This document shows, piece by piece, positions 9,301 through 54,613 of a DNA stretch of 64,000 nt; position 1 is the first letter of the stretch; the number at the start of each line of letters is the position of its first letter. The DNA is from Porphyra umbilicalis (taxonomy: Eukaryota > Rhodophyta > Bangiophyceae > Bangiales > Bangiaceae): the NCBI GenBank assembly GCA_002049455.2, contig KV918786.1, positions 372,001 to 436,000 on the forward strand, in the 5' to 3' direction. The notes beneath the pieces are model-generated. The model searched no databases. It saw only the letters and a program-made list of their open reading frames with translations, and was not told the origin of the DNA. The position numbers were made by a program, and so were the translations under genes.

Positions 9301-9581
9301 ATCTGCACCGTGCGGATCGCCATCGTCCCGAGTTTGACCACGTCTTGCCGACGAAGCGTGAATGAGCGCACGTCCGACGAGACGTGGCGCGTTGCCGCTG
9401 TGTACGTCGTGCGTTCCGCAATGATGAAGGAGATGATCTTGCACACAACCCCGCGCGTGAAGAGTAGCCATTGCCGGTGCTTGTTGCGGCGGCGCATGGC
9501 AAAGACGGAATCGGCGTTCCCGTAGTACTCTACCGCGCGCCTGCACGCGGGAGCGTCGCAGTCCCATCTCCCCACCCACAC
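6357..9581 (-). CDS. KDZ/Zisupton-like transposase, main exon with Ulp1 protease
   Basis: This is the catalytic part of a DNA-transposon protein. The exon begins after a CAG acceptor at 9584-9582 with VWVGRWDCDAPAC, and position numbers here run from codon 9926. A C..C...YYGNADSVF segment (about 120-145) and CPRCG (216-220) match the N-terminal zinc-cluster pattern of KDZ elements. The transposase core follows: CPHVVTLGF (635-643), the YDIAC-like FYEVACKID (671-679) and the DRPHSITHSC stretch (700-709). The C terminus is a C48/Ulp1 cysteine protease with His1051 (HWVLV), Asp1068 (YYDSLG), Gln1118 and Cys1124 (QHDGGSCGVF), so the catalytic set is complete. KDZ/Zisupton proteins in other eukaryotes combine SWIM, transposase and Ulp1 domains in this order. 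There is no stop or frameshift over 3.2 kb, so the copy may be functional. I found no terminal repeats. Confidence 0.8.
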   Translation of the reverse strand: MWVGRWDCDAPACRRAVEYYGNADSVFAMRRRNKHRQWLLFTRGVVCKIISFIIAERTTYTAATRHVSSDVRSFTLRRQDVVKLGTMAIRTVQIPPGTGRCPRCGPSPTFVVIDAQAVGCSDADNANPFRPADDCPVLDIPASNLCIVKKAALRGAVLKVLRSSTPLTPTQVGLLREWRGTISTIARPTPEAAAATVFFRFFPLGVEAPEGRAVPPVAAAADAPAQSAADAPAQSAADAPAQSAADDPGPRRKRARVGSTLEDALRLDAAGNTVLGENGPPAKKALETWRDRTGICAPAFKEYSRSDDGVWICVRPFLQAMLTETVTGMFLRKDTEPVTLLANTLRLMNKDAWKKLTKAVDDVGFLTSFLGRFADDVDDDVRFRKAVGELLLQAIVFEKYVDDTFEKQAMLKSKAAPAWKNKAYCDRWKNTPTPEDYKRWRAEQKDLDALDEDDPLVSFEFFASLLRVRPGIVDSFAAKRRVGYRGKDRHVADAEGDGDTCNKAFSITAGLSQGVLNVVCPHVVTLGFRCLFRAESVGEALSIVLERFASLPTAIFYEVACKIDKNAMRRVRVIMRAHGVRCILDRPHSITHSCSPVYMPDESLGTTAGVATQAAEVSHSVSVFNRTSLAYMAPATYMSHRMVQVAFMNLRKIYRLHADNSAGENDHIPLSPFFHAKIAHQCERISVCPCDAVESSADVAAALAGQHDAQGVNGGAIADPASPPPPGLDAHYGDARAADADATGGEPAQDPEEDGPTEDQLVAATVVADQVVINPAHVQLQAEFDALADAGADGSAKALISTPVTRAEARLVNEITGHRDGAEVIRLVNKARITLRVADMELLKGVAWLNDELMNSFSALINHRSSLRTGAAAAAADGGHPLGVRVCMPSTYFYSKLSARMGCYDYDGVRQWGKKRRLDLEEVDLVLVPINIARCHWVLVTVDIKHRTFHYYDSLGAVDSRGAVANVQRWLGDEVRSRLGDETGASWAVESWRTFFIDRLPEQHDGGSCGVFVLAAADCLSLGVPLHFSQKHIEALRHRIALALFFDSLFSLGFSSVLSVPPEEPRLGSDEDDA
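8854..8925 (-). repeat. 24-bp tandem repeat x3 inside transposase gene
   Basis: Three consecutive, almost identical 24-bp units encode three copies of AQSAADAP in a Pro/Ala linker between the N-terminal zinc clusters and the transposase core. The unit length keeps the frame. Confidence 0.85.
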
Positions 9582-9762
9582 CTGATGGCACCAAGGGTGC
9601 AAAAGATCCAAACAGGGAATGAAGCAGAGTCGAGGAGTAATGATCCTTAACGACGAGTCAGAACCAGTGACAAACACAGACCAAGCTGGCACGAGACCGA
9701 GCTCGCGGTGCTCAGAAGTGGCCAGGCGAAGGAGCGAGAGACACATGACAAGGCAGGGGTGA

Positions 9763-10821
9763 TCAACACAAGAGAGTGAGGCAAGGTACCCGTAAAGGAG
9801 GTGCAGTAGGATGGTGCGTGACCAGGAGACCAGGATCCTTGGTGGTCTTGTGCCGGTCGGCTCGTTCATGGCCGCAGCTCCCGCAAAAGAGCTCGACGAG
9901 AGGGATCTCCAGGTTCCGCAAATCACCCAGCGACTGGGACGTCTCTATCAGTTGACCGAGGAGCTTGACGTGCGCCGCCTTGTTCTCTGACCGGCCGGCC
10001 GAGCGTTGCAGGATGAGCCCCCGCCAATCTGCAGTTCTCGCCCACACCGCCCCTTGATCCAGCTCAGCGGCGCACGGCATCATGTTGCGCGGTGTCCGCT
10101 GCGCCACCTTGCTCTGTTCAATGTCGCGTGGGCCCCGCACCGTGTCGCCGGCCTGACCTTCCAGGCCCTCGTCCTCCTCCTCATTGTTCAGCATCTTTGA
10201 GCGGGGAGCCGCTGCGGTCTTGCGGGCTTCCTTGCGCGCCTCGACGACGGCAGGCGCCGACCCAGAGTCAGGGTGGTTGAAGCCCTCGGGCCCTTGCGCG
10301 TCACGGGCAACACGTACATGACCGCACCGACCTCGGAAGCGTCGACAGCCAGGCGCAATGCAGGTCGCGACGTTGCTGGTGGTGAACGTGACGACCAAGT
10401 ACACCGCATGGTAGAGCACAGCCCATGCGAACGACTGCCCGTACACGTCGAACACGGCATACTCGGCCGAGTCGGCACGGAGGCGCATGCGGGCGCGAAA
10501 GGTTGACAAGGAGACGCACGCGACGCGCAGCGCCTTCACCAATGCCGCCGTGTGCTTGCAAGTTGTTCTCCTGGATGACACCGACAAAAAGAGGGCATTC
10601 TGCGTGCCGCCAAAGCAAGAGCACAGAATACCGTCGCGGCACGACACCCAGAGGATGGAGAGATCCGCCTTTCCAGCGCCCGAGCGGAGCACAATTGCCC
10701 TCGATGGCGACGCCGGGTCCCCGACAACACGGGCTGTCACGGGGGAGGGGTGTTTCCCCATCTGGCGACGGGAAGGCAGCCAACAAGTCCGACGGATGCA
10801 AGCCGCCAAGGTGTCCACCAC
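9763..10821 (-). CDS. KDZ/Zisupton-like transposase, upstream exon with SWIM finger
   Basis: This is the upstream exon of the same mobile-element protein. It carries a SWIM zinc finger of the form CxC-x18-CxH (Cys67, Cys69, Cys88, His90, at about 10552-10623), a DNA- or protein-binding module usual in MULE and KDZ transposases. A second cluster, Cx4Cx6CxH (154-168), follows. Then comes a charged segment with EEEDEG and, near the end, a CGSCGH pair. The frame overlaps the next exon's ORF but in another register, so an intron must join them. The acceptor is CAG|GTG at 9582/9581, and the donor is either GTCACG near 9822 or GTACCT near 9788. The codon at 10821 is GTG, so the true start lies upstream, probably in the same frame at 10828-11349, which is separated by one TAG. 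Confidence 0.6.
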   Translation of the reverse strand: MVDTLAACIRRTCWLPSRRQMGKHPSPVTARVVGDPASPSRAIVLRSGAGKADLSILWVSCRDGILCSCFGGTQNALFLSVSSRRTTCKHTAALVKALRVACVSLSTFRARMRLRADSAEYAVFDVYGQSFAWAVLYHAVYLVVTFTTSNVATCIAPGCRRFRGRCGHVRVARDAQGPEGFNHPDSGSAPAVVEARKEARKTAAAPRSKMLNNEEEDEGLEGQAGDTVRGPRDIEQSKVAQRTPRNMMPCAAELDQGAVWARTADWRGLILQRSAGRSENKAAHVKLLGQLIETSQSLGDLRNLEIPLVELFCGSCGHERADRHKTTKDPGLLVTHHPTAPPLRVPCLTLLC

Positions 10822-13483: not shown

Positions 13484-13881
13484 GAACTGGGTTTGTTGCA
13501 CAGCCGTCGGTGCGCGCCACCGTGTTGAAGGGTTTGCGGGGTGTGTGTTAGACCAGCCGCTTCTGGTTGATGCTGTATATTTTTACCCTTCTCGGTCCCT
13601 CCTTGCCCCATGCAGATGGTCCCGTGCGACCCGCGGTCCATCGCCCCAAAAAGACCACGGAGCAGATGCTGGTCGGTGGCGTACCTTTCCACCTCTCGCA
13701 TAGCAAACAGCCGGGAACGCCGAACCCCGTCACTCTGACAAGAGAGGCGAGGAGCAAACCGTGCGCCATCCGCGCAGACAGGAGACTCTGGTTGCCACGT
13801 GTGAGGCCCGCTCATCGAATGCGGATCAAGCCGGCCACGCTGGTGTGCTTCAGATTGCATCTGCGGTGGTCGTCTCTCTAG

Positions 13882-14150
13882 TGTCCATTCTACTGACCGC
13901 CTCATTTGAGCCTCTCAGGCTCATTTGAGCCTATTTTTGATGCCTCTCTGTGACCAGGTTCCGGCCTCGGCTGCTCTTTCTGAGAATAGATCCGGACTCA
14001 GCGCAGTCCACTTACGGCTGTGTACGATGAAAACTCGGAGGGGGTGCCCCAGACACCCCGAAAAGGCCGCGTTTCCAGGCCATATGAGAGGGAGCCTCAT
14101 TCGAGCCTCATCTGAGGCTCATTTGAGCCTCGGGAGCAGTAGAATGGACA
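13882..14150. mobile_element. 269-bp piggyBac-type MITE with CTAG target duplication
   Basis: The 14-bp termini are perfect inverted repeats (TGTCCATTCTACTG at both ends), flanked directly by CTAG at 13878-13881 and 14151-14154. Inside each end are palindromic motifs of the GGCTCATTTGAGCC kind (13901-13935 and 14090-14133). There is no coding frame. Terminal bases, flanking CTAG and palindrome layout match the piggyBac-like element at 50617-53448, so it is probably moved by that or a related transposase. It sits about 400 bp downstream of the C2 gene stop. Confidence 0.85.
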
Positions 14151-14446
14151 CTAGGGCTTCCACCTCCACTCCCCCCCCGCACTGACTCCTCTGCCGTCGT
14201 ACGCCACGCCCGAGTCTTCCCTCCTCCCCCCCTACCCACCACGTGTGAGCGCGACATGTGCTGCCTCCTCCACCGGGCGCATATTGGTTTTGCCTCGTTC
14301 CTGTTCCCCGCCCGAACCGCGCTGTCGGCTGCGTCGCTCCCGCCGCCACGCGCCGCTTGGGCGGTTACCCGCCGCCCCCCCTTCCACGGGCGACCGGCCC
14401 GCGGCGCCGCGAGTGCCCCCCCCCCCCCCCCCCCCCCCCGTTGGCA

Positions 14447-15294
14447 ATGGCCACCCCCTCCCGCCCGCCCCCCTCCACCGCCTCCCCCGACGCCATCGTG
14501 GCGGCGCTGGACACCATCCGCGGCCGCATCGACGCGGCGGTGGGGTCGGCGTCCCCCCCCCCACCGCCCCCGTCACGCTCATTGCCGTCTCCAAGACGCG
14601 CCCGCCCGACGCCATTGCCGCCGCCTTTGACGCTGGCCAAGTGGACTTTGGGGAAAATTACGTGCAGGAGCTGGTCGGCAAGGTCGCCGACTGTCCGCCG
14701 GGCGTGCGGTGGCACTACATTGGGGCGCTCCAATCCAACAAGGCCAAGGTGCTCGTCGGGGAGGTGCCCGGCCTCGCGTGCGTGCAGTCGGTGGATCGGT
14801 CCAAGACGGCGCGGGCGTTGAACAATGCGGTTGTTAACCGGCAGCAAAAGGCGGCAGTCACTGACGGCGACGGGCAAGCAGCAGCAGGGGAGGGGGCAGG
14901 AGCGGCCGACGGCGGCGACGGCGGCGACTCCCTCGACGTGATGGTGCAGGTCAACACGTCGGGGGAAGAGTCCAAGAGCGGCTGCGCTCCGGACGAGGCG
15001 GTGGAGCTCGCCCGGTACGTTTCCGATGAGTGTCGGGCGCTGCGGCTGGTCGGGTTGATGACCATTGGCGCGCCCGACACCGAGTCGGACCGCCCGCCGG
15101 CCTTTGAGGTGCTCCTCCGCGTGCGTGGGGAGGTGGAAGCCGCGCTCGACCGGGGGGAGGGGGGGGGGGGGGGGGCGCGCCTCGGCCTCTCCATGGGCAT
15201 GAGCGGCGACTATGAGGCGGCGGTGCGGTGTGGGGCGACGGCCGTGCGGGTCGGGTCGGCGATTTTCGGGGCGCGCGACTACTCGGCGGCGTAG
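14447..15294 (+). CDS. PLPBP: YggS/PLPBP-type pyridoxal-phosphate-binding protein (one frame break)
   Basis: This is a pyridoxal 5'-phosphate homeostasis protein of the YggS/PROSC family, which binds PLP on an alanine-racemase-like TIM barrel without known enzyme activity. Landmarks in order are TLIAVSKTR (PLP-lysine motif), FGENYVQEL, WHYIGALQSNK, VQVNTSGEESKSG, LRLVGLMTIG and LSMGMSGDYEAAVRCG...VRVGSAIFG. The natural N terminus (ATG 14447, SPDAIVAALDTIRGRIDAAVG) is in a different frame from the rest. The switch falls in a run of ten C at 14553-14562, so a homopolymer miscount or slippage is likely. An ATG at 14256 would add a Ser/Arg/Pro-rich leader that looks like an organelle transit peptide, but a 23-C run (14416-14439) separates it. 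An insert of about 25 residues rich in Gly, Ala and Asp interrupts the middle. Confidence 0.85.
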
Positions 15295-15537: not shown

Positions 15538-16812
15538 TCACACCCGCAACGATGGCGGCAGGTCGTCCCACCCACAGCCCCCCCCCCGGGCGCCCATCCC
15601 CCCCACGGCCTTGCCGGCGACGGCGGTGCCGAGCGCCATGAGCGCCTCCACCCCCGCGCCCGCGACGAGCCCCACCGCCACGGCGCCAATGTACGCGTCG
15701 CCCGCGCCGGTCGTGTCGACGACCCCCCCCGGGGGGAGCGGCCACGCCGGGCAGGCGACCACGTCCATCAGCTCCCCCGGCTCGCACGAGGCGCAGTCCG
15801 ACGGCGGCGGAAACGTGGTGTGCGCGACGACCACGTCGACGCCGCGCGGCGCGTACATCCGCGGCGCGCCGTCGGTCGGCGGGGAGCGCCGGAGCATCGT
15901 CGCCCCCGCGTCGCCGGCGGTGGAGATGACCCACGCCGCCCGCGTCGCGCCCGTCCGCAGCAAGTCGGCCATGGCCGCCTGCGTGCCGAGGCAGTGGGGC
16001 GCGTACAAGCGCGGAAAGGCCGCGTTGCACACGATATAGTCGACGAGCGGGAGGAGTTGGGCGGTGCCCGCCCGCACCTTTTCCGCGTCCATGAGCACGG
16101 GGATGCCCGCCGCAACGGCGGCGGTGGCGAGCGGCACCGCCGCTTCCGCCTGCCGCCCGTCGACGTGGAGGAGCGCCACGCCGTCGAGGAGCCCCGCCGC
16201 CGCCGCGTCGGCGGCCGTCAACTCGACGGCCGCGGGGCTGTGCACGCACGTGCGCGTGCCGCCGGCCGCGTCGACGAGGATGTAGGTAAAGGGGGAGGTG
16301 AGGCCGGGGGCGACCACCACCGGCGCCGTGTCGACGCCCTCGGACGCGAGGCCGCCGAGGATGGCGCCGCCGGCCGCGTCGTCGCCGACGAGGGCGAGGA
16401 CGCTCGCCCGCACGCCCAGCCGCCGCGCCGCGACGGCCGTGTTGGCGGCGTTGCCGCCGCCCGAGGTCGACGAGGCCGTCGTCCGGATTTTGGCGTCGGG
16501 GGTGGGGAAGGCGTCGACGACGGCGGTGTAGTCGAGGCCGGCGGCGCCGACGCAGAGGATGCGGTGGGGTTCCAAGTGGGGGAGCAGGGCGGCCGCCGCG
16601 GGGGGGGGGGGGGGGGACTGGCCATCCATCGTGGGGTGCGGAAATCGGCGGCGGGGGGCCCGAGTGGGTGCTTGCCGGGAAAGGCAGCGGCGGCTCGAGA
16701 CGGGCCGCTGCCGGGCGGGGGCAGCCGCCCAGCCAGCCACAAAGCACGGCACGGGCAGACTGGTGGAGGGGCCGGGTTGACCGGAAGACCAGACGAAGCA
16801 GCTGCTATTCAT
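15538..16812 (-). CDS. pfkB/ribokinase-family sugar kinase, plant plastid type
   Basis: This is an ATP-dependent kinase of the pfkB family. From ATG 16629 the core runs ILCVGAAGLDYTAVVDAFP, PDAKIR, then the family signature 1 GGGNAANTA and SPFTYILVD with TRTCVHSP. Later come VLMDAEKVR and signature 2 DTTGAGDAYIGAV with the catalytic Asp. The DAKIR and SPFTYI..TRTC..P pattern is what I recall from plant plastid pfkB-like proteins of unknown substrate. Upstream in frame, ATG 16812 adds 61 residues rich in Ser, Arg and Pro, consistent with a transit peptide, which is why I give the longer start. It is convergent with YggS (244 bp between stops) and divergent from ADC synthase. Substrate not assignable. 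Confidence 0.85.
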   Translation of the reverse strand: MNSSCFVWSSGQPGPSTSLPVPCFVAGWAAAPARQRPVSSRRCLSRQAPTRAPRRRFPHPTMDGQSPPPPPAAAALLPHLEPHRILCVGAAGLDYTAVVDAFPTPDAKIRTTASSTSGGGNAANTAVAARRLGVRASVLALVGDDAAGGAILGGLASEGVDTAPVVVAPGLTSPFTYILVDAAGGTRTCVHSPAAVELTAADAAAAGLLDGVALLHVDGRQAEAAVPLATAAVAAGIPVLMDAEKVRAGTAQLLPLVDYIVCNAAFPRLYAPHCLGTQAAMADLLRTGATRAAWVISTAGDAGATMLRRSPPTDGAPRMYAPRGVDVVVAHTTFPPPSDCASCEPGELMDVVACPAWPLPPGGVVDTTGAGDAYIGAVAVGLVAGAGVEALMALGTAVAGKAVGGMGARGGGCGWDDLPPSLRV

Positions 16813-17190
16813 GTCTAAAGAGCCTATCCGCCGGGGACGTGGCCGTGAGCAGCGGTGTGGTTGGTGGTGGTGGTGTCCCACATGCAGGGGTGAAGCCGGC
16901 CACAAGAGCGTGTCAAGGACCGCAGTCGTAGCGCGCACAGAGAAGGTGGTCACTGACCATCAGGCATAGAGATCACGAACGACAGCCACGTGTGCAGGAA
17001 GTGGTTCTGTGGCCAAACCAATCCGCGCACACGTGTTCGGTGCTGTCGAAAATGATTCCGTCACAGATCTAGTCTCAATGCGTGGATGACGATGCGGGGC
17101 AAGAGTCCTCTCAGGAACAACGAGGGCTACTGTACCTTGAGTTGGCTCAATCGCCCAGCTCGTCGGTTCCACGGTCGTGCAGTCGCGTCG
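16813..17190. promoter_or_regulatory. shared upstream region of pfkB and ADC synthase genes
   Basis: This is 378 bp between divergent starts (16812 on the minus strand, 17191 on the plus strand). It is less GC-rich than the genes on either side and has no open frame of note. By position it should hold both promoters, but I see no clear core element. Confidence 0.4.
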
Positions 17191-17641: not shown

Positions 17642-20600
17642 GCGGCAGTGGTGGCGGTAGCCCCCTCCCCGTCCTGGGCGTCTGCCTCGGCCTGCAAGGC
17701 CTGTGTGCGGCGGCGGGCGCGCGCGTCGGCCCCGCCCCCGACGGCCCCGTCCACGGCCGCCTCGCCACGGTCGAGCGGTCGCCGGCGGGGCGGGGGTGCC
17801 CCCTCCTCGGCCGCCTCCCCGTCGACGCGTGGCAGGCGGTGCGGTACCACTCGCTGGCCGTCGACGCGGCGGGGCTGCCCCCGTGGCTCACGCCGACCGC
17901 GTGGGCGGCGGGCGTCACGGGGGGAGGGGGGGGGGGGGGCGGGGGGATGGCGTTGATGGGGGCGACGCCCCTGAGGTGGTTGCCAATGGGAATGGGGGGG
18001 GGGCGGGGGGGGTGGGGGGGGCGCCGCCCCCTGCGGGAACCACCCCGCCGCAGGTGTTGATGGCGGTGCGCCACACGAGCCGCCACCTGTATGGCGTGCA
18101 GTTCCACCCCGAGAGCGTCGCGACCGAGTATGGGGCGGAGCTGCTGGCCGCGTTTCGGGACCTGACGCTCGAGGCGGCGACGGCGGCGGCGGCGGCCGCA
18201 GCGGCGGCGGGGCAGCCACCGGGGCTTGCGTCGGGAGCCGCGGCGGGGGCGGCGCCCCCCCCGCCCGCGCCGAGCCCGAATGGCCGGGGGGGTGACGGGG
18301 AGGCGCCCACCAATGGCCACGCCGACGCCGCCCGCCCAGCGGCGGCCGCGCCCGCCGCCGTCACGGCCGGGGGTGACCGCACCGTCGCCACCGACGACGC
18401 CGTGCCGAACGGGGCGACGAATGGGCACGCCCCCCCCTCCCCCGCGTCCCCCCCCCCCTACACCGTCACGGCGGTGCGCGTCGATGGCGCGACGGGCGCG
18501 GACACGGAAGCCGCCTTTGTGGCGCTCTACGGCGACGCCCCCGGCGAGTGTTTTTGGCTCGACTCGTCGAGCAGCTGCGCGCGGCGGCGGCCGCCCGGCA
18601 GTGACGCCGCCACGGAGCGGGGGGGCGTGCCCCCTTGCGGCGGGGCCATCACCGCGGCGGCGGCGGCGGCGGCGGCGGCGGAAGCGGCGGCGGTGGCGGA
18701 AGCGGCGGCGGCGGGGGACCCCCCACGTCGCGCGGGCGCTTTTCGTTTATGGGCGACGTGTCGGGGCCGCTCGGCCACGTGCTGCGCTACGACGTGGTCG
18801 CCCGCACGCTCACCGAGGTGCGGTCGCTGCCGACGGCGGCGGGTGGCGGCGGCGGCGCGCCGTCGGCGCTCGGCGGCGGCGCCACCGGGGCGCCACCCCC
18901 ACCCCGGTGCCCCCCCCCGCGGACGCGCCCGCCGTCAACGGCATCTCCCCTCCTTGTACTACCACCACAGCGACGACGGCGACGGCCGTCACGACAAGCA
19001 CCCCCTGCGACTCCTTTTTTGACGCCCTCGACGAGCGCCTCGCCGCCGCGGGGGCGGGCCTCGGCACCCCCCCGTCACGGCGCCCGTCCCGTTTGACTTT
19101 CTCGGCGGCTACGTCGTGCAACTCGGGTACGAGCTCAAGCGCGAGTGCCCCGGCGTGCGGGTGCCCAACCGCCACGCGTCGCGGTCGCGCGTGGCGGCGG
19201 GGGGGGCCGGCGACGCCGTCGCGCTGTTTGTCGACCGGCTGGTGGCGGTCGACCACGGGGACGGGGGGGTGTACTTGCTCGCCGTCACCGAGGCGGCGGC
19301 GGGGGGGGGGGCGCGCCGCCGCCCGTGCCCGCCGCCGCCGCCGCCGCCGCCGCCGCGGGCGCAGGCGGCGCCGCCGCCGCGGTCGGCGGCGCTGCCAATG
19401 GCCACGGTGGCGGCGGGGGGGACGCCGCCGGCCGCGCCACCGCCCGCGTCAAGCGGCGGCGCGTGGCGTCTGCCAATGGCGGTGCGGGTGGCGGCGGCGG
19501 CGGCGGCGGCAGCGTCGTCGGCGGCGGCGGCCTCGACGCGGCGGCCGAGGCCGCCCTCGCGTCGGTCGACGCGGACACGCGCGCCTGGTTCCGCGCGACC
19601 GCCGCGGTGTTGGCGGCGCTGCCGTCGACCTCCCCCCCCCCCCCCCCCCCCGCGGTCCCCCGCCCCCCCCCCCCACGCTCGGGGCGGGCACCCCCCCCCC
19701 CCCCCCCCCGCGCCTGCGCTTTGCCCTCGAGCGCCCCCGCGCCGCCTACCAAGCCGCCGTCCGCTCGTGCCTCGCCCACATTGCCGCCGGCGACTCGTAC
19801 GAGTTGTGCCTCACGACGCGCCTCGTGGCGCGGGTCCCCCCACCACGTGCGGCCTCGCCCTCCACCGCGCCCTGCGGGGTGTCAACCCCGCGCCCTACGC
19901 CGCCTACCTCCGCCTCACCCCGACGGTGGCGCTCGCGTGCTCCTCCCCCGAGCGCTTCCTCCGCGTCTCCCCCGGGGGGGTGGCCGAGTCCAAGCCGATC
20001 AAGGGCACCCGCCCCCGGGGGGGGGACCCCGCCGCCGACGCGGCGCTCGCGGCCGGCCTCGCGGCGTGCGTCAAGGACCGCGCGGAAAATTTGATGATTG
20101 CGGACCTCGTGCGCAACGACCTCGGCCGCGTGTGCGTGCCGGGCTCCGTCACCGTCCCGTCGCTGATGGCCGTGGAGACGTACGCAACCGTCCACCAGCT
20201 CGTGACGACGGTGCGGGGGCAGGTCGACGTGACGCCCCGCCGGCGGGTGGGGGGGGTCCCCGCCGCGGCGACGGCGGCGGCGGTGGGGGGGGCAAGCGCG
20301 CCCCCGCCGCCGCCACCCCCCCCACCGCCGCGTCGGTCGTGCGCGCCGCGTGGCCGATGGGCTCCATGACCGGGGCGCCCAAGGTGCGGACGCTCGCCCT
20401 CCTCGACGCGCTGGAAGCGTCGCCGCGGGGCGCCTACTCGGGCTCTGTTGGCTACCTGTCCCTGTCGGGCGCGGCGGACCTCAACGTGGTCATCCGCGCG
20501 GCGGTGCTCGACGGCGCGGCGGGGACGGTGACGGTGGGGGTCGGGGGGGCCATCGTCGCCCTCAGCGCCGTCGACGAGGAGTTTGAGGAGGCGCTGCTCA

Positions 20601-20715
20601 AGGGGGCGGCCGTGATGCGCGGCGTGGCGACGGCCGTGACGGGCGCGCCCGCGTACGAGCTGTGTGTGGACGGGGGGGGGGGGGGGGGGGGGGGGGGGGC
20701 GCGGCAGCAGAGTGA
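17191..20715 (+). CDS. aminodeoxychorismate synthase, PabA-PabB fusion (several frame breaks)
   Basis: This is a bifunctional folate-pathway enzyme making 4-amino-4-deoxychorismate from chorismate and glutamine. The glutaminase half has [10 protein letters not shown] (~17380), SPGPGTP, nucleophile Cys in GVCLGLQ (~17682) and GVQFHPES (~18095). The synthase half has [40 protein letters not shown] (~19790), PIKGTRPR (~19995), [10 protein letters not shown] and GSMTGAPK (~20357). The Lys in PIKGT and the fused order are those of plant ADC synthase; anthranilate synthase has PIAGT. ATG 17191 opens a leader like a plastid transit peptide, in frame with the glutaminase. The frame changes several times (near 17935, 18600-18730, 18900-19080, 19260-19700, 19840, 20240-20310), each in or next to C/G runs or GGC repeats. 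A 28-G run at 20672-20699 precedes TGA 20713. Large Gly/Ala/Pro inserts make it about 1,170 residues. GLQ replaces the usual GHQ. Confidence 0.85.
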
Positions 20716-21370
20716 GCACCGCACCGCGCTGAGCAGCGGCCATGCATATGGCCGTGTCGGTGGGGGTGGCACGGCGCTCTGTCCTTTTTCGCGTGGAGCG
20801 CACCGGCCACGCTCGGCGTCGGCAGCGTCACGTGCGACCGTCTCGACGACTGTGCCCGTGCCCGGCGTGGTCCGGACGTGGGTGTGCAGCGAGGGGCAGA
20901 AAAGCGACGGTTTTACACACTCTCGCTGTGTGAACTCGATCTCTGTCCTCCGGGTGGCTGGGAACTCAAGGCTGACAAAGAGTGTGCACGCAGATCAAAT
21001 CCAAACAACTTGCACACAGAGTCATGACAAGTATCATGCTGGCAGCGTTACTTATAAGTGCTGCCACGAACATAAGTCCTGCCACGAACAACTTGAGGAC
21101 TCTCTCCCCGTCTGCAGTCTTTCGTGGAAAAAAATGTGAAGTGTTTCATCAGTGTGAAGACCTTTTATGGACTGCGTGAACAGGTCTATGGCAACAACAA
21201 TTACCACACAACGGGGCCTGGCAGAAGTCGCGGCGGTGGCTCTTCCGCAGCCGGCGCGCAAAGGACCGTGTTACTCCCCCATACTGCGTTTTCGTGGTCG
21301 TAGCGCCCCACACTCCTCTTCGCGGTGGCCCTGCATCCAGTACACTGCTGCCGCCTCGGCGGGCGCGGTT
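20716..21370. other. intergenic spacer between ADC synthase and satellite
   Basis: This is 655 bp of ordinary composition and no credible gene. A short near-repeat (CTTATAAGTGCTGCCACGAA then CATAAGTCCTGCCACGAAC) is at about 21050-21090. It may include the ADC synthase 3' UTR. Confidence 0.4.
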
Positions 21371-34423: not shown

Positions 34424-36833
34424 TTGCTGGTCCCTTCATTTTGTCCTGGCGGCCAGGGACTGGGACTGACTGCATTTTCACAATAGCGGCGAAAGTTGTT
34501 TAAACATTCATGTATTACATATCGGATGCAAACAAGTTGGAAACCAATACAAAAAGTAGGCATGTAAGTACTTCGATCTCGCTAGTAAGCCTTGTGTGCC
34601 CTGTGGAAACAGGATACGTGCCTCCGCTGCCAGCCAAATGGGAGACTCCCGACACACTGTGTCCCACCTGAGCAGGAAGCCACTGTTTCTCCCCTTTAGG
34701 ACCCTTTTTCTGGGCCTAGATGCCGCTCGCTGCCTGCAACAGGCCAACATCCACGGATTCTTCAATCTTTCTTGACATTTCTTCCGGTGCATGGCTCTCG
34801 TCTGTTGAATGATTTGCCACACATGGGCCTCACAATCGCCGCTCGGGTTGGCTCGGACAAGTGTGACAACTTGTCTTGCACGATTCGCGCCACGCAGACG
34901 TCCCGACGTCTGGCGTACCGCTTGTGTCGACACGATGAAGTCAGCGCCAATGCGTCGGCTTGCTGTGTCGCTGCACCTCAATGATGGGAAGAGCCTAGAG
35001 ACGGCAGCTCGTCACACGCGAATGTCCCGCAGGACACTGACTCGCTTTTTGGCATACGTCGAGGACACGGGTGAGGTCCACTATGCCCCCAAGAAGTGGA
35101 ACACTCACGCTAACTGCTTTGTGAAGTGCCCAGATCTGCGCTCTGCGGTGCTTTTTGCTGTTGAGCAGTGGCCAGAGGCTGTTCTGGACGAGACATCGGA
35201 CTTTGTCACTAACCTTCATCAACTGCTTGGCGAGGATGTTGTTATTTCTCCCTCCTCCGTTTCTCGTATACTCGCTGCCAATGGATTGACGCGTAAGGTG
35301 ATCGAGACTGCCTTTATTACGCGAAACGAGCTTGACCGCGCGCGCTGGGTCCTTGATCAGTGGGACATTCCCCTGCGCGCTAGAGTTTACGTGGATGAGG
35401 CGCACCGCTGCGGACGGTCTGCCAACAGGAAGTGGGCCTGGTCACTGCGTGGGCATCGAGCCGAGTGTTACCTAACGAGCTCTCGGGGGGTGAGCACGAG
35501 TTTCTTCGTTGCCATGAGCCACGACCGGGTGCTTGACTGGAAAATCACGCAGCCGCCCCCCGGCCAGACCTCCGTCGACTTTTTGCTTTTCGCTCTGGAA
35601 AACGTGCTGCCGCACATGAACGCGTATGACCCTGCGTTGCCCTGGTCCCATCAGAACGAGCGCTGTGTTCTGATACTCGACAATGCTCGGGCTCACGACC
35701 AGGCCGCAATCGCCCTGATTGAGGCCGCTGGGGTGCTGGTGCGGCTCCTGCCTCCCTACAGCCCCGACTTCAATCCGATTGAGGACGTGTTCTCAGTCGG
35801 GAGCAGCTGGCTGCGACGGCACGTCATGCCCGAGCAGTTCAACGAGTGGCCCTTATTTTGCATTGCGCTCATGCTATCCTATATCTCGCCGGCCATGTGC
35901 CGTGGCTTTGTCAAGGCCGCGGTGCACAACTACACACTGTACATCTGACGGCCCGTAAGTGATGCCCTCCCAACTGCCTCTTATCGATACCAGGAAAGAT
36001 TGACAGCAGCGGTGCGCCACTGCTCTCACTAACTCAACCATTACCAACGCTTTCCGTCCCGCTGGTTCTCGTTCCCCGATCATACAGGCCTCACTTTTCT
36101 GTCACTGGATGCAACCCTGAACACAGAGAAGGTGAAAAGGCTGAGATCCGCGGCAGGCGCTCGCCGCCGGTCGGCGCGCAACGGGATGTTTCATGCGGGC
36201 CGGCGTCGGGAGCCTGGCACGACGGCCGGCGTGATTGGGCCGGCCGCGGTGGCGGTTGGGCAGTCGGATGGGCGGTGGGACGAACTGATGCCGGAAGTCC
36301 AATACGGGGGAAAGATCGGTAGCGAGCAGTTCTTGGCATGCAGAACAGCGGTGTTAGAAATTTGATCGAGGTCTGTATGAACGCAACTCAACAGTTATAG
36401 CCGCTACGAGCTGCCCCCAACCGCACGCACTGCAAACCAAATGCCAAGAGCGTACCCGACGTCTGGGGCGCCCTGGTGACATGAGCGCCGGCCGAGGCTC
36501 CAGAACCAGAAGGACCACCGGCCATGCTCGGCAGCCTTGATGACAAACAGGTTGCCAGTTGCTGAAGGCCTGGAGCTGCATGGCGACAGTGACAGACCAC
36601 ACGTCGACGACGAAGCTCGCGACGTCGACGGTGTGGAGAACGAATGTGGCCATGAGATCGGCGCCTTATGTGCCATAACTGTGACCACAACTACGCGGCA
36701 GGCCATGTAAATTGTGGACTTTGTCTTTGAAACAACGTTGGACTTTTCCTAATCTTTCAAGGAAATGTTTTCATCACCAACTAAGAGTCAGTCCTAGTCC
36801 CAGGCCGGCAGGACAAAAGTGGGAGACCAGCCA
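34424..36833 (+). mobile_element. Tc1/mariner-type transposon, 2.4 kb, TA-flanked
   Basis: The left end (34424 onward) begins TTGCTGGTCCCTTCATTTTG, and the right end, read inward from 36833, begins TGGCTGGTCTCCCACTTTTG. The two ends agree at roughly 80% over about 50 bp, including GTCCTG.CGGCC.GGGACT.GGACTGAC. TA flanks are at 34422-34423 and 36834-36835. The transposase occupies 34935-35948. Nearly 900 bp between its stop and the right end is non-coding, which is long for this group and may hold a nested insertion. The MITEs at 37535 and 45308 have matching ends. Confidence 0.8.
34935..35948 (+). CDS. Tc1/mariner (IS630-type) transposase, intact
   Basis: This is a DDE transposase of 337 aa. 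I chose ATG 34935 (MKSAPMRRLAVSLHLNDG) because a helix-turn-helix follows directly (KSLETAARHTRMSRRTLTRFL), as in this family; upstream in-frame sequence lies in the non-coding leader. The catalytic triad is present: Asp in RVYVDEAHRCGRS (~35394), Asp in CVLILDNARAHD (~35679), and Glu in PPYSPDFNPIEDVFS (~35781), with 33 residues between the second Asp and Glu. The NRKWAWSLRG and PYSPDFNPIE blocks are diagnostic of DDE_3/IS630-Tc1. There are no stops or frameshifts, so it could be active and is the best candidate to move the family A MITEs. Confidence 0.9.
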   Translation: MKSAPMRRLAVSLHLNDGKSLETAARHTRMSRRTLTRFLAYVEDTGEVHYAPKKWNTHANCFVKCPDLRSAVLFAVEQWPEAVLDETSDFVTNLHQLLGEDVVISPSSVSRILAANGLTRKVIETAFITRNELDRARWVLDQWDIPLRARVYVDEAHRCGRSANRKWAWSLRGHRAECYLTSSRGVSTSFFVAMSHDRVLDWKITQPPPGQTSVDFLLFALENVLPHMNAYDPALPWSHQNERCVLILDNARAHDQAAIALIEAAGVLVRLLPPYSPDFNPIEDVFSVGSSWLRRHVMPEQFNEWPLFCIALMLSYISPAMCRGFVKAAVHNYTLYI

Positions 36834-44639: not shown

Positions 44640-45307
44640 GGCACTCTCCCACTTGCCCAGCTGTAGTTCGCGATATGTTTGCTCATTTTCGAGAAGTTCC
44701 ACCGACATTCGAAGCGGGAGGTGAGCCAGAGCAACAGTTGGAGCCCCGCTGAGTACTCAATGCAAAGGTGTAGAGACACAGAGCAATACTTCAGGGTGCT
44801 GGCCATGCCAGGAGCACATGGGATTCCTGCTTCGGGGCCTCTCGGTCAAGAAGGCCATCCATTGAAGTTTTGTTGCTCTTCATAGCCTCGGCCCACACAA
44901 ATGACATGCACCGTACACCAAATTGCGTTGGCGTCCAACAGCAGCCGCACGCACAGTTCTGGGACCCACCGAGGACGTCTGAACAAGTCGTGCGCTCAGC
45001 GCGACTCTGGAATTCTGGCGCCAAGCCACGCAAGCGCATCGATCGGTCGCCATCCGAGAAGGGTCCACAGTGTCTCTGCTAGAGAATGGAGCCGCCCCCT
45101 AGCACGAGTCCGGCTCCGTTGTCGTGGACAGCGGAGACTGGCGCTTTGCCCGTGTCCAGTCCATCGCAACCATAGATGGCGAGCTCCTAGAAGGTACCAG
45201 CCATGGAGCTTACCGTCTTAGGACAGCCTGCTGAGGTCACAATTGACACTTCAGCCGAATTATGATTGATGCCAGCTGACCGTGTGAGGCAGCTTGTCTT
45301 CGTGCTA

Positions 45308-48388: not shown

Positions 48389-50173
48389 ATGTTGAAGTCT
48401 GCAATCCCCTTGCAACGGGAAAAAACAACGCGTCAGCTCCCTGTTGGAGAAGGCAAAGCAATGCGTAAGCTGCCGGATGTGGGAGTGTTCTACATGACAT
48501 TTTCTCAGCACCTGAAGAGAGACTTTACGGATCACGTAACGACAGCTCTGTTCCACAACAAGGAAGACTCGCGAATGGGCACAGCTGAGCGCCCGGCCGA
48601 GCTCTTCGAAACAGTGGCAGCCAGGGACCCCGCCAGGATTAATTTGAAGAACGTCTTCTTCCGTGAGTCATACAGGTTCCACATTGGATGCACTGCCAAG
48701 GTCTCATTTGATGACGCGAACGCGTTTGAGGCGCGCTTATTGAGCACCTCTATTGCGCTTGATGGATACAACTGCGTCGGCGTCCACGTATGCTTCTGAA
48801 CGCACGCTACGCGTAAATGAGTCAATTGCAGTGTTTGAGGCCCGTCCCGGGTTTATGCCGCCATAGCGCTGGGCTCCATGGTTCCCGGAAGATCGCCCGG
48901 TGGCACTACGCTTCACGCAGTCCTGTGGCGAGTTTGTTATCGCCGTCCGGGAGTCCACCGAGCATGAACATGATTCGTGGTCAGCTTTGACCGCCGCCGG
49001 CCCCTTAGAGCTTTCCTGCGTGGCTGAGCCCAGAGAAGACGTCCTCTCCGAGAAAGATCTATACTTAGTGTATGTGTCGCTGTGCGTAGACATGTTCAAT
49101 GTGCATAAGCTTCGCCGTGTAAGCCCAGAGGGCTACTACGGGGGTTGCACCTCTTTGTGCTTGGAGGATGGTGCGTTTTCAGCTCGTCCTCCCTCCTTCT
49201 CACCCCCTGGAGCAAGCCCGCAAGCTCTGCTCAGAAAGATCATCGACAACTTGATGAAAGTGGGTAAGGAGGGCTTGGCTGTCTGTGACGCTTTCAAGAA
49301 GGAGAGCGTTGTCATTCAAGTATACATATGTCTCGGTGTCTTTGATTTTCCCATGGCCGCAAAGTTCTCTAACTCGATCGGCGCCCAAGGCACGGAGCAC
49401 TGCACAAGCTGCGACATTGTCCACAAAAAAGCGGTCACAGAAAGGAAGGAGCGGGCGATGAGCAGCACTGTTTCTTTCAATGTGAAGTACTCACGGTACT
49501 CGAGAACGCAAAAGCGACCTTCTCTCATCATGTCTGTTATGAAAAACACACCGGGCTGTCGACAGACGCAGTGAGGGACGCACTCCTACTGAACGGCATT
49601 ACAGACAAGGCTGGTAGTCTGATTGTGCGCCTGGCCGAGGCCCGAGGACCTAGAACGTTTGACAGACACGAGCACGACCCAATTTCTCCTTCACATCTAC
49701 TGTACTGCAGCATTGGCTCACACTTACTTATAGAAGCGCACGAGACACTCTCGGTCGAGCAGCGAGACAAGGTCATGCGGGAAATGCGCCTCAGCGTGAA
49801 GCATGCTCCGACACACACGATACAGTGATCATTCAAGCCCAAAAGAAAGGGTGGCACAACTTTGTCAATGTCAGATTGCGCAGTGCTTCTCACCGTAGGC
49901 CCCGCAGTGTTACAGTATCTCGTGCATAACACTGCCAATTACTCTCATGCAGTGGCTACCCTCAGAGCTTTCGAGGCCCTGCGACGGTCTTCCACTGTTC
50001 TGTTCCACGTGCCAGCAGCCTCATCCGAAGGGGAAAAGGCCATGAAAGAGCGGCCGACCGTCGCTGGACTCCAAAGTATCAGCGAGAGCCTCATGATTGA
50101 GCTACGTCAACCGTTACCCTTTGAAGCAAATTGGGAGTGCCCGTCGGTGCGTCGTGTACTGCAACTGCTATAA
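48389..50173 (+). pseudogene. Tnp2/CACTA-like transposase relic, copy 2 with extra 5' part
   Basis: The 48900-50173 part repeats copy 1 almost base for base, including its frame breaks. Upstream, outside the duplicated block, a frame from ATG 48389 (MLKSAIPLQREKTTRQLPVGEG) runs to 48799 with VGVFYMTFSQHLKRDFTDHVTTALF and FRESYRFHIGCTAKVSFDDANAFEARLL. It joins the block through another register change at about 48775. That frame may be the natural N-terminal part of the same transposase. A further frame at 48062-48373 (Ser/Arg-rich) may precede it. Confidence 0.4.
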
Positions 50174-50616
50174 GGCACTCTCCCACTTGCCCAGCTGTAG
50201 TTCGCGATATGTTTGCTCATTTTCGAGAAGTTCCACCGACATTCGAAGCGGGAGGTGAGCCAGAGCAACAGTTGGAGCCCCGCTGAGTACTCAATGCAAA
50301 GGTGTAGAGACACAGAGCAATACTTCAGGGTGCTGGCCATGCCAGGAGCACATGGGATTCCTGCTTCGGGGCCTCTCGGTCAAGAAGGCCATCCATTGAA
50401 GTTTTGTTGCTCTTCATAGCCTCGGCCCACACAAATGACATGCACCGTACACCAAATTGCGTTGGCGTCCAACAGCAGCCGCACGCACAGTTCTGGGACC
50501 CACCGAGGACGTCTGAACAAGTCGTGCGCTCAGCGCGACTCTGGAATTCTGGCGCCAAGCCACGCAAGCGCATCGATCGGTCGCCATCCGAGAAGGGTCC
50601 ACAGTGTCTCTACTAG

Positions 50617-50675
50617 TGTCTTTTCCCCTGATCGCGAGGATCAATTGATCCTCTCTTGAGGATCAATTGATCCTC
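50617..50675. repeat. left terminal and subterminal repeats of piggyBac-like element
   Basis: A 15-bp imperfect terminal repeat is followed by two copies of GAGGATCAATTGATCCTC (from about 50636 and 50657). These palindromes are candidate transposase-binding sites. Confidence 0.85.
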
Positions 50676-50958
50676 ACCGAAAATCGTCGATTCTGAGCTG
50701 TTTGCATATGAGAATGGGCTTTCGACGGCTCACGACTCATCCCCTTCTCTGTTTGTAGCAAAGGGGCACTCCGTAACCACTCCACCACCATGTCTGATGC
50801 AGGCAGACACGAGGGCCTTCACATATCGACAAAACTGGCTCATCGCACATTCCCTCTCTACACAAGAAACGCTCGCATCTGCAGACATAAGAGAGCTCAC
50901 AGCTCCGACCTCACAAACAACGCGCCTGCATCGGCAGCCACACTGTGCGCTCAATCTA

Positions 50959-53268
50959 CTACACCTCGAGATTGTGAGTGGCCCGCAGATGCTGCGAAAA
51001 GCACTGGCGGCCCTCCCGCGGTGCACACAAAAAGACCTCCTCTCCACCACACTCGCGGCAAGTCGAACACACCAAGGTCGTGCGCCGCGTCTTGCAGACT
51101 CGGCAGTTGCGCTGCGCCAGGAATGCAGATTCCGAGGAATCAGTCAGATTCCTGCGCTTCAACGTGGGCGTCAGATGCGTGCCCACGCCGTAAGATGATG
51201 CGACCTCAGGAGGCCCCGCCGCCGATGCCGACACGGCACGATCTCGCAAGCCTGTCGAATCGTACCGGTTCTCGATTAGGTCCGCTGCCAGGTCCTCGTA
51301 GAAGTGCGCTTGAGTCTCGCGACCCAGGGGGCCACGAGCCCCAGCGTCAAGTATCCAGGAGTCCACAACACACATGCCGAGGATAGACATATTCACTCGC
51401 GTCGACCAATCGTGGGTGCCGTACTTGTGCTCAAGCCGTAGATCGTCCTGTCGGCAGCGATTGTGGCGATCGATTCGGGCACACGATTGATAGTAGACCT
51501 CCGCAACTTGCGGCTGACGGATAGTCAGGGGCACATGTTCCGACTCCTCCGCGCCGGTTCGCCACCGCAGCCGCTCAATCGGCGCCCCGTCGAGACAGGT
51601 AGATGTTGTCGAAATGAAGTAGCGACGGTCACGATCTACCCACATCGCGGCCATCAGGTCAATTTGGCCAGCCGCATCTCGATGGTACAGCGAGGCACTC
51701 GAGCCACGAGACGGCACCTCCAGCGTGGAGAGAGCAGCCATTGGGTACCGTGTCGTGGAGTTCTTGACAACACCGACGAAGCGCAAGCCCATACTTTTCA
51801 GCTCCAGGGCCGCCTCGACGCTGGCAAAGTACGAATCTTCACACACAACTCGATCCGTACCCGCCCAGTTGGAAACTAGGCGCTTCAGGACGACATTCCC
51901 GTGAAGCAGGCGGCTCTCAGTGGGGGTAAGTCGCTGCGGCTGGTCCCCTGTAGTAGTCACGAGTTGGAGGTAGAGCATAATGCCGCTTCGCCCACATGCT
52001 GTGTTTTGGATCTCACAGCCATTTTCAGGCTTGCGATCAATCGCCACATACATAGGTACCCCCCGGTCGCTCCATCCGCCCCCCTGGCCGTACCATTCGC
52101 TCATGGACTCATCAACACAGAGGAGGTCGCTCGGTCTCACGTGTGCCGCGCGGTGAGCGTTGAAAGACGTCACAAAGTCATTCACCAGCGACCATCGGCG
52201 ACGCTCGGAGCTCACAGCAGGGTCCGTACACTCCTCACTATAGGTCATGCAAGACCACAGCGAGTCAAAACGGTCTCGTGACATACCTGTGAGCTGGCCA
52301 AAGCCGGGCGCCGGGATGTACTTGTTGCGCGCCGTCGTACTCCAAAGCTCGGACCTGGACCCGAACTCGTACCGGGTGCCCAACAACAGGACCCCAACGA
52401 ACTTGAGGACTTCTCCCGCGGTAGTTGCGCGCAGCCGGCGAGCAGAAAGCTTGACGGAGGTCAGCCTGACCATCCGACTAAGTTGGTCGAGAGGAAGCAT
52501 CGCCAAAAAGATATTGACAGCGTGACGCGTGCGCCCTGGGCCCATGGCGTCACCCTCCTCCGCAATGGTCTCGCCCGACAGCAGACGGACGGACCACGAC
52601 CGGCGCGGGACGATGCCGCCGATGGAAAGCGTCACTACCTCGGCAGACCAGGTGTAGTCATGGATGGTCACAGGGGCCACTGTGGGCTCTCCTGCGCTGC
52701 CGGGCGCCGTCATCATGCGTGTCGGAGTGGATGTCATATGCTGGGTGGGTGCGTCTGGGTGAGACGGAAGCGAACGAGAGGTAAGCGGCGCGGGAAAGCC
52801 TTGCGGCATCGATCCCAGAGGCATCGGCGCAGACGCCTGGGAGGCGGGCTTCACAGGCGCCTGGGTCATCGGCGGAGCAGCACCGCACTTCACGTTCAGC
52901 AGCATCAGGTGCTTGTCGACTTCTCCGCTACTAAGTTGCCACGTTGCATTGACGCCCGTCATAGAACGCCCGTTCTTGACCTCCCGAGTCACACTCGTGA
53001 CCACCCCGGTCACAAGCTTCGTACCGGCGCATGACCTATACAACCGGGCGCATTCCGAAAAGTGCTTAATGTGCACGGCCTTGGCATGAACCGAGGCACC
53101 GACCACCAGGCGGGGGTCAGCAGACCGTCCCATGTTGGGGACGAGCACACGAGTCCTCGCAGTGAGGGAGGGAAGGCGGGGGGGGGGGAGGAGAGGCGGG
53201 AACAAAGAGGTGGGGCGGACGGGAGAGCTTCGAGTGGGGGAGCCCGCGCCGCTCAGGGAAAGCGCCAT
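50959..53268 (-). CDS. piggyBac-like transposase, intact
   Basis: This is a 769-aa DDE transposase (DDE_Tnp_1_7 type). ATG 53268 gives a Pro/Ser-rich leader, and ATG 53133 (MGRSADPRLVVGAS) is an alternative start. The core begins with the domain FLAMLPLDQLSRMVRLTSVKL and RFDSLWSCMTYSE. Catalytic Asp residues are Asp386 (LLCVDESMSEWYGQGGGW), Asp478 (VVCEDSYFASVEAALEL) and Asp600 (YYQSCARIDRHNRC), in the spacing and context of piggyBac proteins. The C terminus is a Cys/His-rich domain: CRVCKTR, CSTCREC, FLC, then CFSQHLRATH, the zinc-binding end module that recognises element ends. There is no stop or frameshift. It is surrounded by its own terminal repeats, so the copy may be autonomous and active. 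Confidence 0.9.
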   Translation of the reverse strand: MALSLSGAGSPTRSSPVRPTSLFPPLLPPPRLPSLTARTRVLVPNMGRSADPRLVVGASVHAKAVHIKHFSECARLYRSCAGTKLVTGVVTSVTREVKNGRSMTGVNATWQLSSGEVDKHLMLLNVKCGAAPPMTQAPVKPASQASAPMPLGSMPQGFPAPLTSRSLPSHPDAPTQHMTSTPTRMMTAPGSAGEPTVAPVTIHDYTWSAEVVTLSIGGIVPRRSWSVRLLSGETIAEEGDAMGPGRTRHAVNIFLAMLPLDQLSRMVRLTSVKLSARRLRATTAGEVLKFVGVLLLGTRYEFGSRSELWSTTARNKYIPAPGFGQLTGMSRDRFDSLWSCMTYSEECTDPAVSSERRRWSLVNDFVTSFNAHRAAHVRPSDLLCVDESMSEWYGQGGGWSDRGVPMYVAIDRKPENGCEIQNTACGRSGIMLYLQLVTTTGDQPQRLTPTESRLLHGNVVLKRLVSNWAGTDRVVCEDSYFASVEAALELKSMGLRFVGVVKNSTTRYPMAALSTLEVPSRGSSASLYHRDAAGQIDLMAAMWVDRDRRYFISTTSTCLDGAPIERLRWRTGAEESEHVPLTIRQPQVAEVYYQSCARIDRHNRCRQDDLRLEHKYGTHDWSTRVNMSILGMCVVDSWILDAGARGPLGRETQAHFYEDLAADLIENRYDSTGLRDRAVSASAAGPPEVASSYGVGTHLTPTLKRRNLTDSSESAFLAQRNCRVCKTRRTTLVCSTCRECGGEEVFLCAPREGRQCFSQHLRATHNLEV

Positions 53269-53402
53269 ATCTGACCAACCCCGCCATTTTCCGGACGCCC
53301 AAGTACTCCGACGGGTAAACAGGCACCGCTGAGTCCATTTCTGGTGTCAGAATTGAGCAGCTGTGGCGCCAAGCGAAGCTACACGCGCTCAAGAAAGGGA
53401 AA

Positions 53403-53448
53403 CAATTGATCCTCTGAAGATCAATTGATCCTCTCAGGAGAATAGACA
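53403..53448. repeat. right terminal and subterminal repeats of piggyBac-like element
   Basis: Two copies of a CAATTGATCCTC / GATCAATTGATCCTC motif lie directly inside the terminal TCAGGAGAATAGACA, mirroring the left end with small changes. Confidence 0.85.
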
Positions 53449-54613
53449 CTAGAGAATGGAGCCGCCCCCGAGCACGAGTCCAGCTCCGTTGTCGTGGACA
53501 GCGGAGACTGGCGCTTTGTCCGTGTCCAGTCCATCGCAACCATAGATGGCGAGCTCCTAGAAGGTACCAGCCATGGAGCTTACCGTCTTAGGACAGCCTG
53601 CTGAGGTCACAATTGACACTTCAGCCGAATTATGATTGATGCCAGCTGACCGTGTGAGGCAGCTTGTCTTCGTGCTACCTTGCAGGCAGCACAACAAGAT
53701 GTTTACCAACATATCTGGCTTCCATTTCAAGAGTGGGTGGCTAGGTGGGTTAATGGCCACTGGTGATTCGGTAGGGGGGTGTTTTGAGCAAACTGCTATC
53801 TTGCTTTCTCTGGATGCATCACCTCACGAAACAGATCTTGAAATACAGTGTCATGGAACTATCACACGTAAAAGAGAATGCGGCGAGCACACCAACCTCC
53901 AGGCCCCACCCGCTCCCCGGGAACGTCAGAACATGGATATCAAGACCCGGAGACTATTAACAGACAATCGATGATAACCAGAAACGAGTCTTGTCAAGAG
54001 CCACCCTTTCCTCCTCCTCCCTCGAACCTCTTCAGCCTGCCTACCAACAGGCGCATGTTAGTATTGGCCAGCCGCTGCACCAACACAGGAGTGTGACATC
54101 TCACCAGGACCTTCGAAGTCGGCAGGCCCATGCGGAGCCAATTGTGCTCTTAGTTTTAACATGTCATGTGCGCACCGCCAGCATCACAGTGGCGCATTTG
54201 CAACCGCATCATCACCGAGCTGCTCAATGCACGACGAGAAGACACCCGTAGAAGTTCATGTCACTACACCACAGTGAGGGCATGACGCGCCGTCGACAGC
54301 GTGGTCTGTAGCAGTTCCCTATATCGTGTTCGGGAGCCCCAAGGGCTCGCCGTCCGGCTGGATCACATTTTCAACGATAAACTGTTGGACAGCTCGTAAT
54401 GCGCTTACCAGGGCCACAGCAGAGGGCTTTTTGCCCCCCCAGCCTGGATGGGAGTCCATTTTCATAGGTTGAGGACAGCGTTGAGGTACTCTTCCAAGTA
54501 CGACACCATCGCGTCCATATACCGACTGAACTCTTTTTGATTTCACTAGTCAAAGATCCTGGCGTTGTCGCAGCACCAGTCGCCATGGGCTAGCTTCTGA
54601 GCCGCTAGCCGAG

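Follow-up and report, generated by a model that had tools for sequence, protein, structure and literature searches.

A piggyBac-like transposon lineage with CTAG rather than TTAA target sites in the red alga Porphyra umbilicalis

Can a transposon of the piggyBac type use a target other than TTAA? The question is raised by a 64,000-nucleotide stretch of Porphyra umbilicalis DNA (assembly GCA_002049455.2, contig KV918786.1, positions 372,001 to 436,000; hereafter the window, with positions counted from its first base), in which a 2,832-bp element at 50617-53448 encodes a piggyBac-type transposase and has one copy of CTAG on either side. A preliminary description, made from the sequence alone, had proposed a distinct piggyBac subgroup with CTAG as its target choice, and this proposal is supported by CTAG-flanked copies elsewhere in the genome, by the transposase domain and by the fold. 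The element is very probably a piggyBac-superfamily (DDE_Tnp_1_7) DNA transposon that moves by cut-and-paste and is a member of a large algal lineage with CTAG-recognizing transposases. We describe it as part of a CTAG-targeting piggyBac-like lineage, and not as a standard piggyBac, because its family of ends does not have the TTAA target and duplication that characterize piggyBac. The features concerned are as follows, with strand given where one applies.

50613-50616: left target-site duplication, CTAG (from the sequence and the empty-site alignment)
50617-50631, plus strand: left terminal inverted repeat, TGTCTTTTCCCCTGA (from the sequence)
50636-50653: subterminal palindrome 1, GAGGATCAATTGATCCTC, a candidate transposase-binding box
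50658-50675: subterminal palindrome 2, with the same sequence as palindrome 1
50959-53268, minus strand: transposase open reading frame (ORF), 769 amino acids, DDE_Tnp_1_7 (PF13843)
53396-53414: right subterminal box, a degenerate palindrome
53416-53433: right subterminal box, GAAGATCAATTGATCCTC
53434-53448, minus strand: right terminal inverted repeat, TGTCTATTCTCCTGA (from the sequence)
53449-53452: right target-site duplication, CTAG (from the sequence)
45079-45082: the one CTAG present at the paralogous empty site (from the alignment)
13878-14154: miniature inverted-repeat transposable element (MITE) of a 286-bp family, with TGTCCATTCTACTG ends and CTAG on both sides

The inverted ends starting with TGTC and the CTAG on either side, as first described, were borne out by the sequence at 50613-53452, and the two terminal inverted repeats are identical at 13 of 15 bases. 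Two identical 18-bp palindromes lie inside the left end, and degenerate versions lie inside the right end. A perfect palindrome of at least 12 bp was present within the first 80 bp of 5 of 11 element ends, compared to 56 of 2,000 random 80-mers, and similar but imperfect boxes were seen by eye at the other six. An empty site is available because pieces of the segment 43240-46006 are found again in 48774-53975. The left flank, one CTAG and the right flank aligned to the locus at 45079-45082 over 597 bases with no gaps and four mismatches (one in the left flank and three in the right), which confirms the single-CTAG empty site previously claimed there. This paralogous site is consistent with both a pre-insertion state and an excision, and with excision being seamless. 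The repeated pieces share approximately 99% identity, at a spacing of 5,534 to the left of the element and of 8,370 and 7,969 to its right.

The 83.8-Mb assembly (665 contigs) was searched for the end core TGTCYWTTCYMC, with the reversed pattern as the control and with duplicate loci included in the counts. The core occurred at 774 genomic places versus 187 for the control, and CTAG followed by the core occurred at 531 places versus 1. Tetramers one base removed from CTAG preceded the core at 64 places for DTAG (41 TTAG, 15 GTAG and 8 ATAG; control 3), 24 for CVAG (control 3), 22 for CTBG (control 1) and 13 for CTAH (control 1). The places that were neither CTAG nor one base off therefore came to 120 (774-531-64-24-22-13), which is below the control of 187, and a sizeable class at TTAA or at random tetramers is thus unlikely. 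The flanking bases, whose tabulation the preliminary description had proposed, were read at 107 distinct ends (exact-core ends in the collected loci, de-duplicated on 40 bp of flank and 60 bp of element): 89 were flanked by CTAG and none by TTAA, with no genome-wide search aimed at TTAA plus the core having been made. The remaining 18 read TTAG (five), TTTG, CAAG and CACT (two each) and seven singletons, and both ends were CTAG in 43 of 65 end pairs. Rather than lying at TTAA or at random tetramers, the other copies lie at CTAG. Position -6, two bases outside the CTAG, was C in 56 of the 107 ends (p 2e-5 against 32%), and target preference may reach beyond the tetramer. The window itself, at a guanine-cytosine (GC) content of 64% (64-68% is the range reported for Bangiales in PMC7423979), contains 66 CTAG and 34 TTAA tetramers.

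Could this nevertheless be an ordinary TTAA piggyBac whose CTAG flanks arose by coincidence, by mutation or by the rare CTAG integration known from the laboratory? In the counts given in PMC3499496, laboratory piggyBac in human cells integrated at TTAA in 23,026 of 23,417 cases, and the exceptions included 110 at CTAA, 100 at TTAG and 9 at CTAG; the strictness that the preliminary description ascribed to piggyBac therefore holds predominantly but not absolutely. The changes best tolerated by the canonical enzyme are thus T-to-C and A-to-G at the outer bases, and a path between TTAA and CTAG through them is plausible. However, hundreds of CTAG ends, together with the absence of TTAA from the distinct ends and a remainder smaller than the control, refute an ordinary TTAA element for this end family in this genome and leave that explanation extremely improbable. 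It is also very unlikely that the enrichment reflects a few insertions multiplied by segmental duplication or by self-nesting instead of target choice. Some copies do abut with one shared tetramer (L020, C258 and C67), and segmental duplicates do exist (L045 and L134 are identical at 309 of 309 bases), but the 89 of 107 ends at CTAG were counted after de-duplication, and across these ends the flanking letters from -14 to -5 are mixed, except for the C at -6, while those from -4 to -1 are nearly fixed.

The preliminary description had dealt with one CTAG element; the CTAG specificity stood, whereas the single element did not, since the genome contains many diverged families as well as MITEs. 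DNA similarity across the genome revealed five more near-full-length copies at 91-97% identity and many that are diverged or partial, and at least 61 matches to DDE_Tnp_1_7 were found. CTAG was also read on both sides of C497, C35, C312, C14 and C164, and exact end coordinates placed CTAG ends, among the matches listed, around more distant transposases on C2, C3, C11, C15 and C23, of which those on C2, C11, C15 and C23 are 48-58% identical to the window protein. Two MITE families of 250 and 286 bp have 52 full-length copies in the collected loci and the window, 38 of them CTAG/CTAG; four of the 250-bp copies are identical to their consensus, which indicates recent movement. The 269-bp MITE in the window is at 93% to the consensus of the 286-bp family. 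Abutting CTAG-type elements with one shared tetramer (L020 150-210, C67:135446-135473 and C258:75564-75591) look as if the duplicated site of one element had become the target of the next. At L071, L110 and L142, a TGTC end meets a neighboring GACA end or remnant with two bases in place of CTAG at the junction (GACA-CT-TGTC), possibly as a result of faulty hairpin or flap processing.

The transposase was confirmed to be intact, with an open ORF of 769 amino acids, three Asp residues and the C-terminal Cys/His module noted in the preliminary description. Its match to PF13843 (E 3.1e-38, 132 bits against a cut-off of 22.4) was its sole Pfam match at E up to 1. In the structural model, D386, D478 and D600 are predicted to form the catalytic triad of a piggyBac fold, and the top fold matches of the model were piggyBac and piggyBat, well ahead of others, at about 17% identity over the structurally aligned residues; a PDB search with the single window protein gave no real match. 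An SH3/Tudor-like barrel occupies residues 48-131. The Cys/His module occupies residues 698-765, and its putative zinc-binding residues (C722, C725, C734, C737, C748, C756, H760 and H765) are conserved in 77-81 of 83 alignment rows. No Pfam zinc model matched this module in the profile search of the window protein, and its profile match to 6zop (PiggyMac) was weak and non-significant (E 0.79). TA-containing targets are common in several transposon superfamilies, and this is what favors a convergent end in Tc1/mariner, PIF/Harbinger or Kolobok. We find such an origin scarcely credible beside a Pfam search that returned PF13843 alone, fold matches headed by piggyBac and piggyBat well above the rest, and two further piggyBac-like features, the subterminal palindromes and the Cys/His module at the C-terminus. 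By domain and fold, a transposase outside piggyBac, the outcome named at the start as speaking against the proposed subgroup, was not found.

Residues of T. ni piggyBac (PB) were matched to the window protein by sequence alignment, with PB positions counted from what we take to be the PB triad numbers. In the joint alignment with piggyBac rows, the omega loop after the first Asp is 6-7 residues longer in the CTAG clade. The position of PB R275 is Y393 in the window protein (Y in 83 of 83 rows of alignment A1) and that of PB N440 is Y593 (Y in 81 of 83), while PB Y283 is retained as Y407 (83 of 83). Among ten piggyBac comparison rows, eight of them from named animals, nine have R or K at the R275 position and eight have N at the N440 position. 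As reported for the piggyBac structure in PMC7351741, R275 and N440 touch the hairpin or target, and TTAA stringency is ascribed to a hydrogen bond between T0 and A3; a C0-G3 pair would keep the complementarity of the outer bases. The changed target goes with the longer omega loop, which may have a role in recognition, and with the near-fixed changes at these two hairpin- or target-contacting positions.

How old is the CTAG preference? The protein search matched 322 relatives and, among the 120 matches listed, one came from the diatom Fragilaria crotonensis. In a tree of 40 rows (45 prepared, five near-copies or fragments dropped) with 17 of the 120 listed relatives and no outgroup, these relatives, L114, L115 and the families of this genome (G000) formed one clade with a Shimodaira-Hasegawa approximate likelihood ratio test (SH-aLRT) value of 100 (no bootstrap), and a very long branch (2.68) separated this CTAG-side clade from the ten piggyBac rows. 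The tree that the preliminary description had called for thus yields a separate clade but, lacking an outside group, does not place it inside or beside piggyBac proper. In the tree, the L114 transposase pairs with the Fragilaria protein as its sister (SH-aLRT 100). Upstream of its listed ORF start, at a distance of 284 bp, lies an end in which CTAG and TGTCTATCCTCC lead into two palindromic boxes, one of them perfect and the other imperfect; simple shuffling predicts 0.0003 ends of this type per 300 bp. The L114 contig (IMG/VR) also bears a Plavaka-type transposase and is for that reason probably non-viral in that part. Judging from the L114 end, a single end of a single element, the use of CTAG seems to be older than the divergence of the red-algal and diatom sides. 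Searching with a further alignment, A2, yielded nothing beyond the L114 contig (as L139), and viral contigs scanned with the window protein or with the end sequence of the element gave no matches. The 17 places in viral contigs with CTAGTGTCTATTCYMC (L116-L132) were discounted as chance: by tblastn none encodes a transposase relative, the sole inward-facing pair (L118) is 5.3 kb apart with a mismatch in one end, and the L119 match falls within coding sequence that looks unrelated.

By analogy with piggyBac, a transposase dimer would bind the TGTC ends and subterminal boxes and cut the 3' ends; the flanking CTAG would form 4-nucleotide hairpins that are later opened, and the ends would be joined at positions staggered by 4 bp across the melted CTAG. 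Because CTAG is a palindrome, as in the TTAA mechanism, the donor site could reseal without a scar. The first and fourth bases would stay complementary, with C-G for T-A, around an unchanged TA core. Tentatively, and with slightly more doubt than confidence, we propose that an ancient lineage extending over red algae and diatoms had its target shifted via a remodelled omega loop while palindromy, TA core and complementary outer pair were kept, and that the element carries along the CTAG flap of the donor, part of which is incorporated where the element inserts, an asymmetry at the outer base being the genomic trace of the hairpin mechanism.

Several observations weigh against the main reading, that of a CTAG-recognizing piggyBac-type transposon. 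C151 (CTAG/CTAA) and C217 (CTTG/CCAG), each read at both ends, depart from CTAG/CTAG, perfect subterminal palindromes of at least 12 bp were present at just 5 of the 11 ends examined, and the omega loop is modelled at low confidence (predicted local distance difference test below 50 at residues 390-417). The right end of L114 was not found, even with the whole 33-kb record included, which leaves a single end; for L115 (54% identity, on a contig binned as Rhodobacteraceae) there is no CTAG in 3,427 bp and the ends were not found. Genome-wide, single-base deviations numbered 64 at -4, 24 at -3, 22 at -2, 13 at -1 and 18 at +1, the first base of the element itself. If four bases were simply copied, -4 and -1 should deviate equally, whereas the outer position deviates about five-fold more often (64 vs 13, p 3e-9), and three of the six -1 deviations with a readable other end (L133, L136 and L141) are unmatched there.

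CTAG is palindromic with a TA core, and 4-bp CTAG and 2-bp TA duplications are therefore indistinguishable at perfect sites. The element might accordingly end in GTGTC...GACAC and copy only TA, with a 2-bp stagger and the outside C and G merely preferred. Such a copy would suit the three unmatched -1 changes and the low variability of -1, with 13 deviations, no more than the 18 at the first base of the element and against 64 at -4; CTGG/CTGG at C10:513665-515088 is compatible with either length, and PiggyMac of Paramecium, a piggyBac relative, is reported to act at TA boundaries (PMC6143343). We nonetheless consider a 2-bp copy rather unlikely. The other three of the six -1 deviations match as 4-bp copies, with the non-palindromic duplications GTAG/GTAG at L053 and CTAT/CTAT at L102 and, at C270, TTAG at the left end with CTAA at the right end when reading outward. 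Whole-tetramer duplications are not expected from a pure 2-bp copy, under which each would need two independent matching changes. Among the 13 deviations at -1, C148 and C270 are matched at the other end and C104, C357 and C17 are unmatched; C24 and C338 (the same sequence) are one-ended, C258 has a CT junction on its other side, no other end was seen within the stretch read for C105, C185, C461 and C503, and C34 was left out. L053 is additional to the 13, its -1 end carrying two core mismatches. In the account of the piggyBac structure in PMC7351741, the active sites mandate a 4-bp offset, and the opened hairpin leaves the donor's 4-nucleotide flank on the element as a flap that is dispensable for the reactions in vitro. 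By analogy, a CTAG flap from the donor that loses its outer base and partly fills the gap, with inner bases from the donor and the outer base from the target, would yield the same asymmetry at a 4-bp stagger. A stagger of 4 bp is likely. The three whole-tetramer copies favor the earlier claim that CTAG is duplicated, although exact 4-bp copying at every insertion is less clean than it implied.

Elsewhere in the window, an ORF at 34809-35948 has a DDE_3 domain (E 5.5e-16) of the Tc1/mariner type, and a PIF1-like helicase ORF (1248-2510) and an Ulp1-protease (Peptidase_C48) ORF (6357-9926) are perhaps parts of other mobile elements. Probable host genes encode an alanine-racemase-like protein (14245-15294), a PfkB kinase (15538-16953), which is 80% identical to a protein of Pyropia vietnamensis (Bangiales), and a chorismate-binding enzyme (19145-21139).

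TTAA is regarded as the defining mark of piggyBac, and its structural explanation is the T-A contact formed within the melted target site. A natural CTAG lineage suggests that piggyBac target choice can change in evolution, and it shows which parts of recognition are changeable and which are perhaps fixed (the TA core, the palindrome and the complementary outer pair). It also provides concrete residues and a loop to swap, and a seamless transposon that uses a different target word could result, an advantage in GC-rich genomes. We found no report of a CTAG-targeting piggyBac lineage in the literature searched, subscription journals and Repbase being outside its scope. In the passages of papers that also name piggyBac, CTAG concerned stop-codon readthrough (PMC10085805), a restriction site (PMC4260951), Helitron ends (PMC5857283, PMC5704228) or primer design (PMC3073922).

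The element resembles piggyBac (Trichoplusia ni) and piggyBat in its DDE_Tnp_1_7 domain, DDD triad, predicted fold, C-terminal Cys/His module, subterminal palindromic boxes, palindromic target with a TA core and single-target empty site. It differs from both in CTAG instead of TTAA, in its TGTC ends and in the longer omega loop, and from piggyBac in having Y in place of R275 and N440; its N-terminus has an SH3/Tudor-like barrel, whereas residues 1-117 of PB are described as disordered (PMC7351741). PiggyMac of Paramecium is piggyBac-related and has TA boundaries like the TA core here but, unlike this element, is a domesticated DNA-elimination enzyme with a loose end consensus and not a transposon. 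In the haptophyte Tisochrysis lutea, TIR/PiggyBac families are reported (PMC5963040), likewise an algal annotation of the piggyBac type. Diatoms and metagenomes also contain piggyBac-like transposases, such as P0085 of Fragilaria crotonensis; a DNA end was seen for one contig among them (L114, left end at CTAG), and the 17 of the 120 listed relatives that were placed in the tree fall in the same clade and share the signature WYG...GG.W...Y.AIDRKPE.GCEI apart from single changes.

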